DNA of 33,364 nt from an uncultured Bacteroidota bacterium (GTDB lineage Bacteria; Bacteroidota; Bacteroidia; Bacteroidales; UBA12481), in NCBI GenBank assembly GCA_903919065.1, contig CAIXHD010000036.1, forward strand, positions 1 to 33,364. The letters run 5' to 3'. The notes under the pieces are model-generated. The model saw only the letters and a list, made by a program, of their open reading frames with translations. It searched no databases and had not been told where the DNA came from. The position numbers were made by a program, and so were the translations under genes. Position 1 is the stretch's first letter, and every line of letters starts with the position of its first letter. Below, piece after piece: positions 15,159-22,991 of the stretch.

Positions 15159-16508
15159 ATGAAAGCAACAATTGCAAAACTACTGCCCGTTTTACTGCTC
15201 GCCAGCTCTTGCGGAACAGGGGTATTCCTTACCTCGGGCAATTCGGATGATGTGTACTACAATCCAAGTAATGAAAAGGTTGTGGTAAACAAAAGAATCC
15301 AGGTAGCATCAATTCCGGCAAACCCCGGCAGACAGGAAACCTTGCGGTTAGTCGAAGACACCGTTAAGGTTGCCCAGGGAAATTACCAACTGGTGGATTC
15401 TGCTCAGCAGGAATATGTTAATGAAGGACAGTATGCTGAAGACAATGGTGAGTATTATAATAATTCTGATGAGGATTATTATTACACTAACCGTATAAAC
15501 AGATTTTCCCGTCCTTACATGGGGTCCAGTTTCTACGATCCATGGTATTCCGGATTTGGTTATGGAGGCATGGGATATGGTGGTTTCGGCTACTATGATC
15601 CATTCTACTCCGATTTCTATTCTCCATTCGGATTTGGCTACTCAATGTATAATCCCTGGTACGGCGGAATGTACGGAATGTACGGAATGGGCTATGGCTA
15701 CGGTTATGGCTCCATGTACTGGAACGATTATTACTGGGGTGGTTGGAATGATAATAATCACGGTAATTATGATGACGGCCTATACGGACCAAGGCACTCT
15801 CCCCGGACTGATGGGATCACCGGAGGACGCTCGGGCGGTTATGCAAATACTGAACGTGTTTATGCAAGCGGCGGTAGCCGTAGTTCAGGCTCAGCTTCTG
15901 GTTCCTCAAACGTTGCTACAAAGTCTGCCTCAACCGGTACTAATTTAACCACAAGATCCTCATCAGACTTAAAATCGGAATCACGTCCATCCGGTTTAAG
16001 AAGCAGCGTTTCAGGTGGTCAGAATACTCAGGTAAGAACCTCTTCTGATCTGCCCGACAGGACAAATTCAAGTAGCTACATACGGTCGCGCACCGGGTCG
16101 TCATATGTTCAGTCTCAAGGACAGGGATTGCGTTCTTCCGCATCCACAGGGTCTTCTGCATCTGATAACCGCTCATCTTATGTACGGCCTAAATCCTCAG
16201 TTTCCGGCAGCTCATCCTCTAATGTTGGAACATCCGGTGCTTACAGAAGTTCACCGTCTTCTCAGTCTGGTGCAGTCAGAAGTTCATCAGGTTCTTCCTA
16301 TTCTGCCCCACGAAGCAGCAGCTACAGCAGCGGAAGCTCCTCATCAGGCCGCTCAAGCGGTTCCTCCAGCTATAGCAGCGGGTCCTCTTCTTCGGGTCGT
16401 TCCAGCGGGTCTTCCAGCATGTCATCAGGAAGTTCATCCGGAAGTTCATCCGGCAGTTCCTCGGGATCCTCACGCTCGGGTGGCGGTGGGTCATCAGGCA
16501 GGAGATAA
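15159..16508 (+). CDS. Low-complexity predicted lipoprotein with Tyr/Gly/Phe-rich and Ser/Gly-rich regions
   Basis: Lipobox '[10 protein letters not shown]'; '[51 protein letters not shown]'; C-terminal SSG/SSSG repeats. Confidence 0.85.
16314..16475 (+). repeat. Protein-level tandem repeat ([16 protein letters not shown] x2 plus SSSG tail)
   Basis: Two identical 16-aa units at 16314-16361 and 16362-16409, followed by SSG/SSSG repeats. Confidence 0.85.
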
Positions 16509-16598: not shown

Positions 16599-18038
16599 AT
16601 GAAAAGAAATATATTGACAATTAGTCTGTTAACCTTTATGGTTGCTGGACTCTATGCCCAGAATGAACAGGATGTACTTCGATATTCATTCATTCAAACC
16701 GGAGGAACCACGAGGTCCATAAGTATGGGTGGAGCTCTGGGAGCTGTGGGCGGTGACTTAGCAGCAGGAAGTTTAAACCCGGCAGGGTTAGGAATCATGC
16801 GGTCAGGTGAATTCTCTTTCACTGCCGATTATAATGCGTGGTCGTCTAAAGCCTGGTATCTTGGTAACAATATGTCAGATAATGGATTCAAAATGGGATT
16901 CAGCCAATTCGGTGTCGCTATGCCGATGAAATTTAAAAATGAAGGTTCACCTCTAACGGGTATTACATTCGGGATTGGCTATAACAAGCTGAAGGATTAT
17001 GGTCAGAATATCACGATCAAAGGGGAGAATAACGGCAATTCCATGGTCGATGGATTCGTTGAATCCGCTAACCAGTCAAACGGCCAATGGGACCCATTTA
17101 CTGATGGATTAGCCTGGGAAACTTATCTGATCGATTATGACTCAACTACCGGCCGATATTTCTCGGATTTCGACAATGCTCATTATGGCGAAATACAAAA
17201 AAGAACAGTTAGTACCAGGGGAGCTTTGGGTGAATATGATTTTAGTATGGGTATGAATTTTTCAGATAAATTTTATTTCGGAGCCACCCTCGGCGTTCAG
17301 AAAGCTAATTATTCTGAAGTATGGGAACATTCAGAGGAAGATACTAAAGAAGTTATTGACTTCTTCAATGCTTTCACTTTTCGGAATTCATTAACCACGA
17401 TAGGTACCGGTGTCAATCTGAAACTTGGCATTATTGCCAGACCACTTGATTTCCTGCGGGTAGGAGCATCAATCCAAACTCCGACCGTTCTTAAAATGAA
17501 GGACGATTTTCGCAGTTCAATGTCCACCGACCTGAATGATGGCCAACCCATACATACTTATGATGAAAGCGGGAATTACGATTATTCAGTGATTACTCCG
17601 TTCAAGGCTGCCGGGAGCCTGGCGCTGATCTTTAAACAGTACGGACTGATTTCTGTCGATTATGAATACATTGATTATTCTACCGGAAGACTCCGGTCGA
17701 CGGATTACGATTTCTTCACCGAAAACGAAGCTGTCACTGCACGCTTCAAGCCGGCTTCAAACCTGCGTATAGGTGGTGAACTTGTTGTTATGGGTTCCTA
17801 TTATGTAAGAGGTGGATATGCCATCTACGGCAGCCCTTATGTTTCCGGCGAGCCCAATGCAGGTAAAAACCTGAATATTTTCTCTGGTGGCGTAGGTTAT
17901 CGGGATAAACAATATTATTTCGACCTTGGATTTGCCCACGCAGGTTGGGAGCAGAGCTATTTTCTTTATGGAAGCAATGCTGCTGACGTGACTAACGGTC
18001 AGACCCGGTTTTCAGCAACCTTGGGTTTCAAATTCTAA
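16599..18038 (+). CDS. OmpP1/FadL-family outer membrane transport protein
   Basis: Signal peptide; 'GGTTRSISMGGALGAVGGDLAAGSLNPAGLGIMRSGEFSFT' is the typical FadL-like N-terminus; beta-barrel ending 'RFSATLGFKF'. Confidence 0.85.
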   Translation: MKRNILTISLLTFMVAGLYAQNEQDVLRYSFIQTGGTTRSISMGGALGAVGGDLAAGSLNPAGLGIMRSGEFSFTADYNAWSSKAWYLGNNMSDNGFKMGFSQFGVAMPMKFKNEGSPLTGITFGIGYNKLKDYGQNITIKGENNGNSMVDGFVESANQSNGQWDPFTDGLAWETYLIDYDSTTGRYFSDFDNAHYGEIQKRTVSTRGALGEYDFSMGMNFSDKFYFGATLGVQKANYSEVWEHSEEDTKEVIDFFNAFTFRNSLTTIGTGVNLKLGIIARPLDFLRVGASIQTPTVLKMKDDFRSSMSTDLNDGQPIHTYDESGNYDYSVITPFKAAGSLALIFKQYGLISVDYEYIDYSTGRLRSTDYDFFTENEAVTARFKPASNLRIGGELVVMGSYYVRGGYAIYGSPYVSGEPNAGKNLNIFSGGVGYRDKQYYFDLGFAHAGWEQSYFLYGSNAADVTNGQTRFSATLGFKF

Positions 18039-18630
18039 AATCATTGAATAACCAATCAAGGATGCTCAAATCCTGAACAAATCCAAAACGGTCTGAAAAG
18101 ACTTGTTGATAAGGCACAGGCACGTAACCTGTGCCTTGTTTTTTTACCTTGGGATGAATAGAATACCGATAATCTGTTGGCCCATAAAAACCCGGGACCT
18201 GATATTCATTGGTGTATTTAATGGTCACCGTGGCTTTCATCAACTTAAGTACAGCTTTCTGAGCCAACTGGTTGTAATCAAAAAGGAATTCCGGCCTGAC
18301 CTCCCAGAGGAAACGGAATTCATCAATCAGGAACTCATAATAGGGTGAACGCCTGTAAGCGGATTCTACGGATCTGAAATGAATTTTCTGCCAGTTCTCC
18401 CGATAATCAATACGTACTTCTCTGATTGGCTGCTTCTGCGAGCTTCCTTTGATGATCGGAATACTTAAAGTGATGGGGCCGTTTGCTGAAAGAATTCTGA
18501 AGCGGTTTCTCCATGATTGCTTCTCGTAATTTTCAAAAGATTCTATGTAGGCGCACTCAGCATGAATCATCTTCTGAAAATACTCAATGGTACCCAGATA
18601 AGAAGTAGTTAGCCAGACTTCTTTCATCAC
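18028..18630 (-). CDS. WbqC-family protein
   Basis: 'YLGTIEYFQKMIHAECAYIESFENYEKQSWRNRFRILSANGPITLSIPI', C-terminal 'DLSILDWLFN'. Confidence 0.85.
   Translation of the reverse strand: MMKEVWLTTSYLGTIEYFQKMIHAECAYIESFENYEKQSWRNRFRILSANGPITLSIPIIKGSSQKQPIREVRIDYRENWQKIHFRSVESAYRRSPYYEFLIDEFRFLWEVRPEFLFDYNQLAQKAVLKLMKATVTIKYTNEYQVPGFYGPTDYRYSIHPKVKKQGTGYVPVPYQQVFSDRFGFVQDLSILDWLFNDFRI
18111..18145 (+). terminator. Intrinsic terminator for the OmpP1-like gene, located inside the antisense WbqC CDS
   Basis: AAGGCACAGG-cacgtaa-CCTGTGCCTT (10-bp perfect stem) followed by GTTTTTTT on the + strand. Confidence 0.75.
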
Positions 18631-18636
18631 TGCATG

Positions 18637-19662
18637 TTAGCGAATTCTCTTAAGGAATCTTCCTGGATGGAAATTTCGGATATAATCGAACTTATTCTGA
18701 TGTGACCACATTACCCTTTTTGCAATGCCGATAATATGATCCTCCGGAATAAAACCAATTTTTCGACTGTCGTCGGGATTGTCACGATTATCGCTCATGA
18801 CGAAGTAGTAATTTTTATTGAAAGTGTATGAGGTCACGAGCTTCCCATCGATACGTATGCCGGAAAAATCAACAATAACATCATGCTTCTCGTGAACTTC
18901 AATAAGTTCGCGATAAAAATCAATGGTCTTAAAATCCAGATTAACAACCATACCCTTGGATGGAACCCTGAATGTGCCAAATTGATCCCGGTTCCACATA
19001 AAATAATTTGAAACAGGATAGTAGTCACCGGCAATATCGCCTAAGTAAAACATTCTTTCCCTCACGGTTTTTACACCCGGCTCTTTTTCTAAGATGGTGC
19101 TCACTCCCTGAGGTAAGTCAATATCAAAAATTCCAATATCTGCTGCAACCCTTGGCTTTTCCAAGTCATACCTGCGAAGGAATTCATTACTTATAACTTT
19201 TCCATCTGTTATGGTCCGGTATTCAGTCCTGGCCTTTTCAGGTAAGGGAATCACTGCCTGGTTGACTTTAACAATTTTATCCTGGATCAGAACGGTATCG
19301 GAAGGGATTCCGATAATACGGCTAATCATAATCCTTTTTCTATCGAGGGGCTTATCGGAGCCGGCCGGAAAATTGAAAGCCACAACATCCTGATGGCTGA
19401 ACTTTTTAAAGGCGGGTAACCTGAAGTATGGAAGCCTGATACCATCAGCATAAGGAGAATTGGTCCCTGGAAGTCCGATGATAGAGATCGGCAGACGCAG
19501 TCCGGAGCGGTATTTATTAACCAGAACCCTGTCGCCCGGGAAAATGGTTGATGCCATATGGAAATTGTCAACTTTCACGGTCTGGTAAAGGCAGGCACGC
19601 CCAAGAAGCAAGATGAGAAGTGTCAGAAACGACAGCTTCAGTATAGTCCTGTAATTCTTCAT
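18637..19662 (-). CDS. Signal peptidase I-like protein 3 (S26 family, predicted catalytically inactive)
   Basis: Box B region 'FHMASTIFPGDRVLVNK' with His at the catalytic Ser position; 'MISRIIGIPSD' with Ser at the catalytic Lys position; box E 'SDNRDNPDDSRKIGFIPEDHIIG' retained. Confidence 0.88.
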   Translation of the reverse strand: MKNYRTILKLSFLTLLILLLGRACLYQTVKVDNFHMASTIFPGDRVLVNKYRSGLRLPISIIGLPGTNSPYADGIRLPYFRLPAFKKFSHQDVVAFNFPAGSDKPLDRKRIMISRIIGIPSDTVLIQDKIVKVNQAVIPLPEKARTEYRTITDGKVISNEFLRRYDLEKPRVAADIGIFDIDLPQGVSTILEKEPGVKTVRERMFYLGDIAGDYYPVSNYFMWNRDQFGTFRVPSKGMVVNLDFKTIDFYRELIEVHEKHDVIVDFSGIRIDGKLVTSYTFNKNYYFVMSDNRDNPDDSRKIGFIPEDHIIGIAKRVMWSHQNKFDYIRNFHPGRFLKRIR

Positions 19663-19683
19663 TAATGATTTCTCTGACGGAAA

Positions 19684-21027
19684 TTACCTGATCTTCATGA
19701 AAACCCGGTTCCATCGTATGTTTGCCGGGAATTTCTTGTCTTTATTAAGGGACAGGTAAACAAATTTTGGTTTTCCAACGATATGATCTTCAGGTACAAA
19801 ACCCCAGAATCTTGAGTCTGCAGAATTGTGGCGGTTATCTCCCATCATCCAAAAGTAATTCATTTTGAAAGTATAGGATGTTGCAACTTTACCGTTGATC
19901 ATGATTTCGTTACCGACGACTTTAAGCTCATTGCCTTCATAAGTATGGATAATGCGTTCATAAAGAGGAAGGTTTTGAATTGTGAGTGGAACTGTTTTAC
20001 CCATCTTAGGAATCCAGATCGGACCATAATTATCGCGGTTCCATTTAAAATCCTCCTTAAATGGGAAAGTCATGCTATCCCAGGTACCAGCTGGCTCTTC
20101 CATGATTTCAATGAATTTCACGTTGGAAAGTTGCTTGATATCCTTAGCTTTTGCGGCGGACAAAGGCAAAAGATACTCTCCGTTAGAGAATCTGATATCC
20201 TCCTTAGCAACGTCGAGCAGTTCCAGTTTCTTTTGATTTATGGGTGTACCATCAGTAATAATATGGTATTGAAACTGCATGTTATTAATAGAATCCTGCG
20301 GTTTTCCATTAACATAAACCCAATTGTGCCTGACTTCCACAGTATCTCCGGGAAGCCCGATGCAGCGTTTGATGAAGTTTTCCCGGCGGTCAACCGGCCT
20401 GACAACTATTCCTCCAAAATCAGCAGGGTTATTAATTACAGTCTGTTTCCCATATCTGCGAACCAGGCTGAAATAACTTTCGTTGCTTTGAATTTTCGTA
20501 CAAACGGTATCTCCTTCCGGGTAATTAAAAACTATCGGATCATTGTTTTTGATTTTTGAGAAACCGGCCATGCGCCGGTAAGGATTCTGAATCCAGGTTA
20601 GAAATGAATTCTTATCCTTTGTTAATGGCAACGTATGCTGAACCAGTGGAAAGGATAGGGGAGTGGTCGGAACACGCGGACCATAACTGACCTTGCTCAC
20701 GAAAAGATAATCCCCGATGAGGAGCGACTTTTCCATGGAGGCCGTCGGAATGTTAAAGTTCTGAAAAAGAAATAGATTAATGAAAGAAACCGCTACCAGG
20801 GCAAAAATTAGAGCATCAATCCATTCAACCAATGATGAATTTTTCTGGTCCCTCTTTTTCCAGAAAGTCCAGTTAACCCTTCGGGTCAGATACAGATCGA
20901 AAATTATAGGCAAACCCAGCAACCAAAGAAAACTGCCAAGCCAGATTACCCATAATAGGTAAATAAATGCTGCAATTCCAAACTTGATGTACTGTTTGCG
21001 TGAGATGCTTTTGAAATCTGTTTTCAT
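19684..21027 (-). CDS. lepB: Signal peptidase I (canonical catalytic dyad)
   Basis: 'IPTASMEKSLLIGDYLFVSK' (catalytic Ser), 'FIKRCIGLPGDTVEV' (catalytic Lys), box E 'GDNRHNSADSRFWGFVPEDHIVGK'. Confidence 0.94.
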   Translation of the reverse strand: MKTDFKSISRKQYIKFGIAAFIYLLWVIWLGSFLWLLGLPIIFDLYLTRRVNWTFWKKRDQKNSSLVEWIDALIFALVAVSFINLFLFQNFNIPTASMEKSLLIGDYLFVSKVSYGPRVPTTPLSFPLVQHTLPLTKDKNSFLTWIQNPYRRMAGFSKIKNNDPIVFNYPEGDTVCTKIQSNESYFSLVRRYGKQTVINNPADFGGIVVRPVDRRENFIKRCIGLPGDTVEVRHNWVYVNGKPQDSINNMQFQYHIITDGTPINQKKLELLDVAKEDIRFSNGEYLLPLSAAKAKDIKQLSNVKFIEIMEEPAGTWDSMTFPFKEDFKWNRDNYGPIWIPKMGKTVPLTIQNLPLYERIIHTYEGNELKVVGNEIMINGKVATSYTFKMNYFWMMGDNRHNSADSRFWGFVPEDHIVGKPKFVYLSLNKDKKFPANIRWNRVFMKIR

Positions 21028-22247
21028 AGTCTGTTTAATATTCTGTTCCAATAAATCCTGAGCGGTTTGTCTGGACCCTTACTGGCAGAGAACCAGATGA
21101 GTAAGGGCTTTCCAATAATATGATTTTCGGGAAGGAATCCCCAATGCCTGGAATCCCTTGAATGATGGCGGTTATCTCCCAGAACAAAGAAGTAATCCTG
21201 CTTAAAGGTATACGACCCTGCTGGTAACCCATTGATAAAGATCTGATCATTATGAATTTCCAAACGATTACTCTCATAAACTTCTATAATTCTCTGATAA
21301 ATACAGAGATTCAGTAATGTCAGCCTGATTGAATCACCTTTCCGCGGAACAATTACCGGGCCAAAGTTATCACGGTTCCACGGATACCTTGCATCGTGAG
21401 GAAAAATATTATAATCACCCCTTTCAGCTTCGAGTAAATGAGCAGTCATAGCAGTAACTTCTGGCCTAATTCTTACCATGGCGAGTTGCTCAGCCCTGAG
21501 AGGCACAAGATAGCCTAACCCCGGTATTATTTGAATTTCAGATGCTCCTAATCCAAGGGTGTTTAATAAATCCATTGGCAATTGCTCGTTCTTTAACTCC
21601 ACCAGATAGTCATAAGTTAGCTGCAAGGATTGGCCTTCAGAGGATGGTATTTGGACTGTATCACCAGGGAGGCCAATGCACCTGCTGATCTCAGGGCTCC
21701 GGCGGTTAATTGAACGATATTTAATCTTTTCCTTGTTGGGTAGAGCGATGTTCTCCGACTCATTCTTTCGTTTCCAGGAGTAATAGCTTATCGAGGCCAG
21801 ATCTTCAAGTATAGAATCACCTTCCGGGAAATTGTATGCTAGAAAATCTCCCCGTTTAATGCTGGAGATACCGGGTATTCCCGATAACCTGAAAAATGGA
21901 TTTCCTTTATCTGGAGAAATACCAGGAAGTCTGGGGCCAAAGTATATTTTGGAGATGAGAACATTATCACCCGGTCGTAATTGCGGCTTACCTGCAACTG
22001 ACACCACGGTAATGCTGTCAATGGCGAGCAAACGGATAATCCAGATAGTAAAGGTTAACCAGCATAAAAGATTTAGCCACGACGGGAATCTTTTCAGAGT
22101 TTTGGGTAACCAGAAAAACCATTTAATTTTTTGGGTTAAAAAAATATCGATTAGGAATATTTCCCCAATGAGAAGCAGCGGTTGCTTGAAAAATAATGAT
22201 AATAAGCTGCAGATAAGAGTGAACGTTGCAAACCAGAACCACCTCAT
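21024..22247 (-). CDS. Signal peptidase I-like protein 1 (S26 family, predicted catalytically inactive)
   Basis: 'VSVAGKPQLRPGDNVLISK' with Ala at the catalytic Ser position; 'ISRCIGLPGDTVQI' with Ser at the catalytic Lys position; box E 'GDNRHHSRDSRHWGFLPENHIIGK' retained. Confidence 0.9.
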   Translation of the reverse strand: MRWFWFATFTLICSLLSLFFKQPLLLIGEIFLIDIFLTQKIKWFFWLPKTLKRFPSWLNLLCWLTFTIWIIRLLAIDSITVVSVAGKPQLRPGDNVLISKIYFGPRLPGISPDKGNPFFRLSGIPGISSIKRGDFLAYNFPEGDSILEDLASISYYSWKRKNESENIALPNKEKIKYRSINRRSPEISRCIGLPGDTVQIPSSEGQSLQLTYDYLVELKNEQLPMDLLNTLGLGASEIQIIPGLGYLVPLRAEQLAMVRIRPEVTAMTAHLLEAERGDYNIFPHDARYPWNRDNFGPVIVPRKGDSIRLTLLNLCIYQRIIEVYESNRLEIHNDQIFINGLPAGSYTFKQDYFFVLGDNRHHSRDSRHWGFLPENHIIGKPLLIWFSASKGPDKPLRIYWNRILNRL

Positions 22248-22259
22248 CTTCTACTATAA

Positions 22260-22976
22260 TTATTGTTTTAATAAATCCTTCATGGTAAAGATACCCTTTC
22301 TATTTACCATAAATTCAGCAGCTGCAACGGCTCCTTTGGCAAAACTGCTGCGGTTGAAGGCTTCGTGCCTTATCGAAATTTTATCTTCATCAGATGTGTA
22401 TGAAACAGAATGAATTCCGGTTACATTTCCTTCCCTCACGCTGTTTACCCTGATTTGATCTTTTGGCGCCAGCAACTCTTGTGTCCATCCGTTTATATTT
22501 GCATTTTCAGCAATAATCTGTTCCGCAAGTGTAAGGGCAGTTCCGCTGGGAGCATCTTTTTTTCGCGTATGGTGGATTTCTTCCAATCGGATAGAATAAT
22601 CAGGATATGAACTTGTTATCTTTGCCAGATAGGCATTGAGCTCGAAAAATAAGTTTACGCCGATGGAAAAATTAGATGCATAAAACAGACCTCCATTAAA
22701 CTTATTGCAAACGGTCTTGATTTCATCGAATCTCTCCAGCCAGCCAGTTGTTCCAGAAACAATTGGAACACCGGATTCGAGGCATGTCCTGATGTTTATA
22801 AATGCCGCATCCGGTCGTGTAAACTCAATGATTACATCAGCTTTGGAAAGAACAGATGATTTCAGATCTGCCTGATTATTCTCATCAATGATGAATGAAA
22901 TCGAGTGATCTTTGGCAAGAGCAACACTTTCCACCTCTTTGCCCATGTGTCCGTATCCTATCAGTCCTAAATTCAT
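22260..22976 (-). CDS. dapB: 4-hydroxy-tetrahydrodipicolinate reductase
   Basis: 'MNLGLIGYGHMGKEVE' NAD-binding, 'EEIHHTRKKDAPSGTALTLAE' active-site signature. Confidence 0.94.
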   Translation of the reverse strand: MNLGLIGYGHMGKEVESVALAKDHSISFIIDENNQADLKSSVLSKADVIIEFTRPDAAFINIRTCLESGVPIVSGTTGWLERFDEIKTVCNKFNGGLFYASNFSIGVNLFFELNAYLAKITSSYPDYSIRLEEIHHTRKKDAPSGTALTLAEQIIAENANINGWTQELLAPKDQIRVNSVREGNVTGIHSVSYTSDEDKISIRHEAFNRSSFAKGAVAAAEFMVNRKGIFTMKDLLKQ

Positions 22977-22991
22977 AACATAAACATACAT

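Follow-up and report, generated by a model that had tools for sequence, protein, structure and literature searches.

An operon-like array in Bacteroidales combining an active signal peptidase I with two maintained homologues that lack the catalytic dyad

A Bacteroidales bacterium carries three consecutive S26-family genes in the order dapB - c1 - c2 - c3 - wbqC, all on the minus strand, and only the middle protein, c2, has the Ser-Lys dyad of an active type I signal peptidase. It is very probable that catalysis has been lost in c1 and c3 and that both proteins are nevertheless maintained. With moderate confidence, the whole is best explained as an operon-like array of an active LepB and two pseudo-signal-peptidases of independent origin, which most likely serve as accessory subunits of LepB. 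The features of the locus, numbered on the window (the whole stretch of 33,364 nucleotides that was analyzed), are as follows.

22260..22991, minus strand: dapB, upstream neighbor of the array (profile match).
21024..22247, minus strand: c1, upstream S26 protein of 407 amino acids with three N-terminal helices and Ala85/Ser188 at the dyad sites; catalytically dead, judging by its sequence.
21993..21995, minus strand: c1 Ala85 (codon GCA), at the position of E. coli LepB Ser90 (profile alignment).
21684..21686, minus strand: c1 Ser188 (codon AGC), at the position of the catalytic Lys145 (profile alignment).
19684..21027, minus strand: c2, LepB, 447 amino acids from the ATG at 21027, with an intact dyad, Ser97/Lys220.
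18637..19662, minus strand: c3, downstream S26 protein of 341 amino acids with one N-terminal helix, His35/Ser114 at the dyad sites, Ser290 for Gly272 and Pro296 for Ser278; likewise predicted to be catalytically dead.
19558..19560, minus strand: c3 His35 (codon CAT), at the Ser90 position (profile alignment).
19321..19323, minus strand: c3 Ser114 (codon AGC), at the Lys145 position (profile alignment).
18028..18630, minus strand: wbqC-like (WbqC-family) gene, downstream neighbor of the array (profile match).

The genes are closely packed: the stop codon of c1 and the start codon of c2 overlap as ATGA, and the remaining gaps are 12 nt (dapB-c1), 21 nt (c2-c3), and 6 nt (c3-wbqC). The c2 reading frame spans 19684-21051 (minus strand), with the ATG at 21027 as the likelier start and an upstream TTG at 21051 as a possible one. 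PF10502 matches c1, c2, and c3 with bit scores of 70.4, 138.9, and 91.6, respectively, against a curated cutoff of 22.9, and all three pass the cutoff of TIGR02227 (NCBIfam signal peptidase I). No further S26 gene turned up when the whole genome was searched with Pfam, and c2 is therefore the sole candidate for the essential signal peptidase. Two plus-strand reading frames on the wbqC side have no Pfam match: a probable outer membrane protein of 479 amino acids (window positions 16599-18038), in convergent orientation to the array at its wbqC end, and a protein rich in Ser, Gly, and Tyr whose N terminus resembles that of a lipoprotein (15159-16508).

An earlier note on this DNA had described three S26 reading frames with Ala, Ser, and His at the nucleophile sites of c1, c2, and c3, and a change from Lys to Ser, encoded by AGC, at the base site of both c1 and c3; codon reading and profile alignment to LepB bear out both statements. 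Against E. coli LepB, the c1 profile and the c3 profile both give ungapped alignments over Ser90 and over Lys145, and the dyad codons of c2 are TCC (S97) and AAA (K220). The note had also held that box E is kept in all three proteins, which is correct for c1 but not for c3: among the eight family genomes whose locus is readable, Gly272 and Ser278 are retained in every c1 and c2 but in no c3. Arg146, Asp280, and Arg282 are retained in both c1 and c3. In LepB structures, Ser278 contacts Lys145. Gly272 adjoins Lys145 in E. coli LepB (PMC4049620). We infer that c1 and c3 no longer cut signal peptides. The predicted models of both have a LepB fold, that of c1 (pLDDT 82) with three long N-terminal helices and that of c3 (pLDDT 84) with one. 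The best Foldseek matches were E. coli LepB entries (E values of 1e-6 for c1 and 2e-8 for c3, with modest TM-scores), and SipA of Streptococcus pyogenes was among the weaker PDB matches.

The same trio recurs throughout the family. Eleven other genomes were sampled, seven of them with a readable array, and the dyad pattern is identical in all eight once the window is included. Where the earlier note had proposed scoring the dyad in S26 homologues, Ser/Lys was found in c2 of 8/8 genomes, in c1 of 0/9 (one being a contig-end fragment), and in c3 of 0/8. The nucleophile site is occupied by Ala, Gly, Ser, or His in c1 and by His, Arg, Glu, Lys, or Thr in c3, and the Lys site is Ser in every one of these c1 and c3 proteins. 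All 161 long copies sampled other than c1 have Ser/Lys, which, together with the agreement of the eight genomes, argues that the loss of the dyad in c1 and c3 is not due to chance. Contig-end fragments of the array were present in two family genomes. S26 matches were absent from genus members G001 and G006, as was dapB, and so the array is probably missing from these assemblies. Among named genomes, the trio was found only in Bacteroidetes bacterium GWF2_49_14 (MEOR01000141.1, L097). In one relative, c1 (L040:2945-4063) lacks the first N-terminal helices and contains a short in-frame peptide repeat, NYTEEGR, and c3 is shortened in one relative (L039); parts of c1 and c3 are therefore dispensable.

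Several lines of evidence indicate that the flanking copies are maintained rather than decaying, as the earlier note had supposed. First, the frames of c1 and c3 stay open down to ∼41% identity, in the same arrangement, across eight genomes. Second, pairwise dN/dS between the window and its nearest relatives (computable pairs) is ∼0.10 for c1 and ∼0.09 for c3, compared with 0.03 for c2 and 0.05 for dapB; these values, rough because dS is near saturation, indicate purifying selection. Third, mean pairwise identity in c1 is 50% overall, 25% in the nucleophile strand, and 94% in box E, so that the catalytic strand has been released from a constraint that still acts elsewhere in c1; the nucleophile strand of c2 has a mean pairwise identity of 92%. 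In c3, box B is conserved about as well as the remainder of the protein, the nucleophile excepted. Both c1 and c3 evolve at ∼3 times the rate of c2. As maintained S26 homologues without the dyad, c1 and c3, but not c2, are pseudo-signal-peptidases of the SpsA/SipA kind.

Phylogeny shows that c1 and c3 do not form a matched pair born of a single event. The c1, c2, and c3 proteins of the family each form one clade in a 164-row tree, and in a 75-row tree the AU test rejected the grouping of c1 with c3 that duplication of one dead copy would predict (P = 0.0002), which makes their origins independent. Gene conversion of the Lys site between c1 and c3 is not suggested either, as the codons around the shared AGC differ. 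In the 75-row tree, an origin of c1 as a recent copy of c2 was weakly disfavored (borderline P = 0.0585), and a clade uniting c1 with active upstream copies of other families was not rejected (P = 0.41). These active upstream LepB copies of other Bacteroidales (L045, L046, L048, L118, L120, L132, L140, L154, L165, and L174) resemble c1 in being long and lying directly 5' of a second lepB; in contrast to c1, with Ala, Gly, Ser, or His at the nucleophile site and Ser at the Lys site, all have Ser/Lys. The dead c1 is specific to the family and probably derives from an upstream LepB duplicate. The c3 proteins group with a clade of short copies located downstream of lepB. They represent a second LepB paralogue of ancient origin (dapB-lepB-lepB2-wbqC) in the form typical of this order, in which it has been inactivated repeatedly.

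In the other Bacteroidia orders sampled, the second copy in this gene order has Ser/Lys, except in one family group with Asp/Gln (L261:2665-3573 and L265:2260-3147), apparently a separate loss. The active LepB2 proteins of those orders (L249, L251, L254, L256-L259, L262, L263, and L268) are like c3 in their place after lepB, length, and sequence but have Ser, Lys, Gly272, and Ser278, all four of which are absent from c3. Within Bacteroidales, after removal of duplicate loci and exclusion of one 5'-truncated row from the former count, the dyad is incomplete in ∼40 short copies and complete in 17, in addition to the eight c3 proteins. Counting matches whose DNA was read, dyad-less copies occur in ∼19 of the 114 family groups that the search numbered. 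Loci with a dyad-less short copy include L051, L055, L068, L071, L083, L088, L090, L113, L115, L149, L153, L208, L209, L211-L214, L253, and L264. On a quick tree with long branches, parsimony requires no fewer than 6 gains or losses of the intact dyad, 9 changes at Ser90, and 10 at Lys145. LepB is alone at many Bacteroidales loci, and a partner is therefore not generally needed. Three short copies (L147, L166, and L222) keep Ser/Lys, yet Asp takes the place of Gly272 and Ala that of Ser278, and these copies may be inactive or altered despite an intact-looking dyad.

Residue pairs at the dyad sites of inactive short LepB2 proteins include Q/S, Q/G, N/K, K/K, R/K, C/S, and G/S, among others. Lys145 is replaced by Ser in 36 of 48 non-Lys rows and less often by Gly, Arg, Gln, Ala, Met, or Val. 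The Ser codons are AGC, AGT, TCG, TCA, or TCC; no single base change turns a Lys codon into a Ser codon, and passing between AGY and TCN likewise takes more than one step. Arrival at Ser through two unrelated codon sets makes a small polar residue seem favored at this site, although, since related rows are not independent, the preference is a lead rather than a test.

The pseudo-signal-peptidases known previously, SpsA and SipA, occur one at a time. The available passages of a review (PMC12445088) describe Staphylococcus aureus SpsA, which the earlier note had rightly cited as a precedent for a dead paralogue, as a type I signal peptidase homologue without both catalytic residues next to the active, essential SpsB. 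It resembles c1 and c3 as a dyad-less companion of an active enzyme but is a single, dispensable copy, unlike the two dead copies of separate origin found here; those passages do not describe the repeated clade-wide loss seen for the c3 paralogue in Bacteroidales. Of the pseudo-signal-peptidases found, SipA (LepA; PDB 4n31), which the earlier note had not mentioned, has the best functional data: Asp48 and Gly85 replace Ser and Lys in an S26 fold whose cleft is kept, Asn140 occupies the Gly272 position (also replaced in c3), and the protein is essential for pilus polymerization (PMC4049620). It belongs to a Gram-positive sortase-pilus locus and does not lie beside lepB, unlike c1 and c3. The open-access literature searched, which mostly excludes subscription journals, contained nothing relevant on Bacteroidetes pseudo-signal-peptidases or tandem lepB, and neither a dead-active-dead trio nor recurrent LepB2 inactivation across Bacteroidales was described there; a term search of the Q-rule paper on Bacteroidetes signal peptidase I substrates found no passage on LepB paralogues.

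We postulate that c1 and c3 owe their retention to binding by the LepB scaffold, most likely of the co-translated LepB or of its precursors, and that c1 and c3 would thereby act as accessory subunits shaping which preproteins get to the active site. Tight coupling to lepB, the retained membrane anchor, and conserved box E make this role our first choice, although as a claim on its own it is tentative. Against it, SipA acts in pilus assembly and not as a LepB subunit (PMC4049620), many Bacteroidales loci manage with LepB alone, and the truncated c1 of L040 and c3 of L039 show that parts of both proteins can be spared.

The main rival, in our view rather unlikely, is that c1 and c3 are chaperone or docking proteins that work independently of LepB, as SipA does, and whose former peptide cleft, or a site close to it, binds a specific exported substrate or surface assembly component. 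Changing the nucleophile-site residue of SipA has no effect on pilus assembly (PMC4049620), an indifference that fits the drift of the c1 strand; c3 retrieves SipA in both fold and profile searches, and box B of c3, the nucleophile aside, is conserved much like the rest of the protein. However, the window ORFs scanned include no sortase, pilus, or pilin gene, the neighbors of the array being dapB and wbqC, and conservation is lacking in the c1 nucleophile strand, which forms one wall of the cleft. A role as local regulators by titration, in which c1 and c3 would restrain LepB or capture signal peptides and so set processing capacity, is improbable; the operon-like coupling and the retained anchor and scaffold agree with it but do not separate it here from an accessory subunit. 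Still less credible is that c1 and c3 are functionless duplicates caught before loss: their faster evolution, the N-terminal deletion in L040 c1, and the shortened L039 c3 point that way, but the long-open frames, constant arrangement, low dN/dS, and a c1 box E about as conserved as that of c2 do not. Least credible of all is peptidase activity through another Ser, Thr, or His, for although c3 keeps a Ser/Thr 3 to 4 residues past the old nucleophile and Ser is favored at the Lys site, the nucleophile site varies freely in c1 and c3, no Lys remains at the Lys145 site, and Gly272 and Ser278 are lost in c3 and most inactive short copies.

A wider and more doubtful proposal is that many Bacteroidales have a hetero-oligomeric signal peptidase of a catalytic LepB with one or two dead LepB-fold subunits, the second lepB of the order having been made into a subunit repeatedly, with Ser preferred at the lost Lys site. 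Bacterial signal peptidase I, a drug target, is generally regarded as a single-subunit enzyme. The repeated natural losses amount to replicates, open to direct study of which residues go first and what the scaffold contributes, and if Bacteroidales, an order of abundant bacteria, repeatedly keep dead copies alongside a live LepB, they may have a multisubunit signal peptidase or a second use of its fold.
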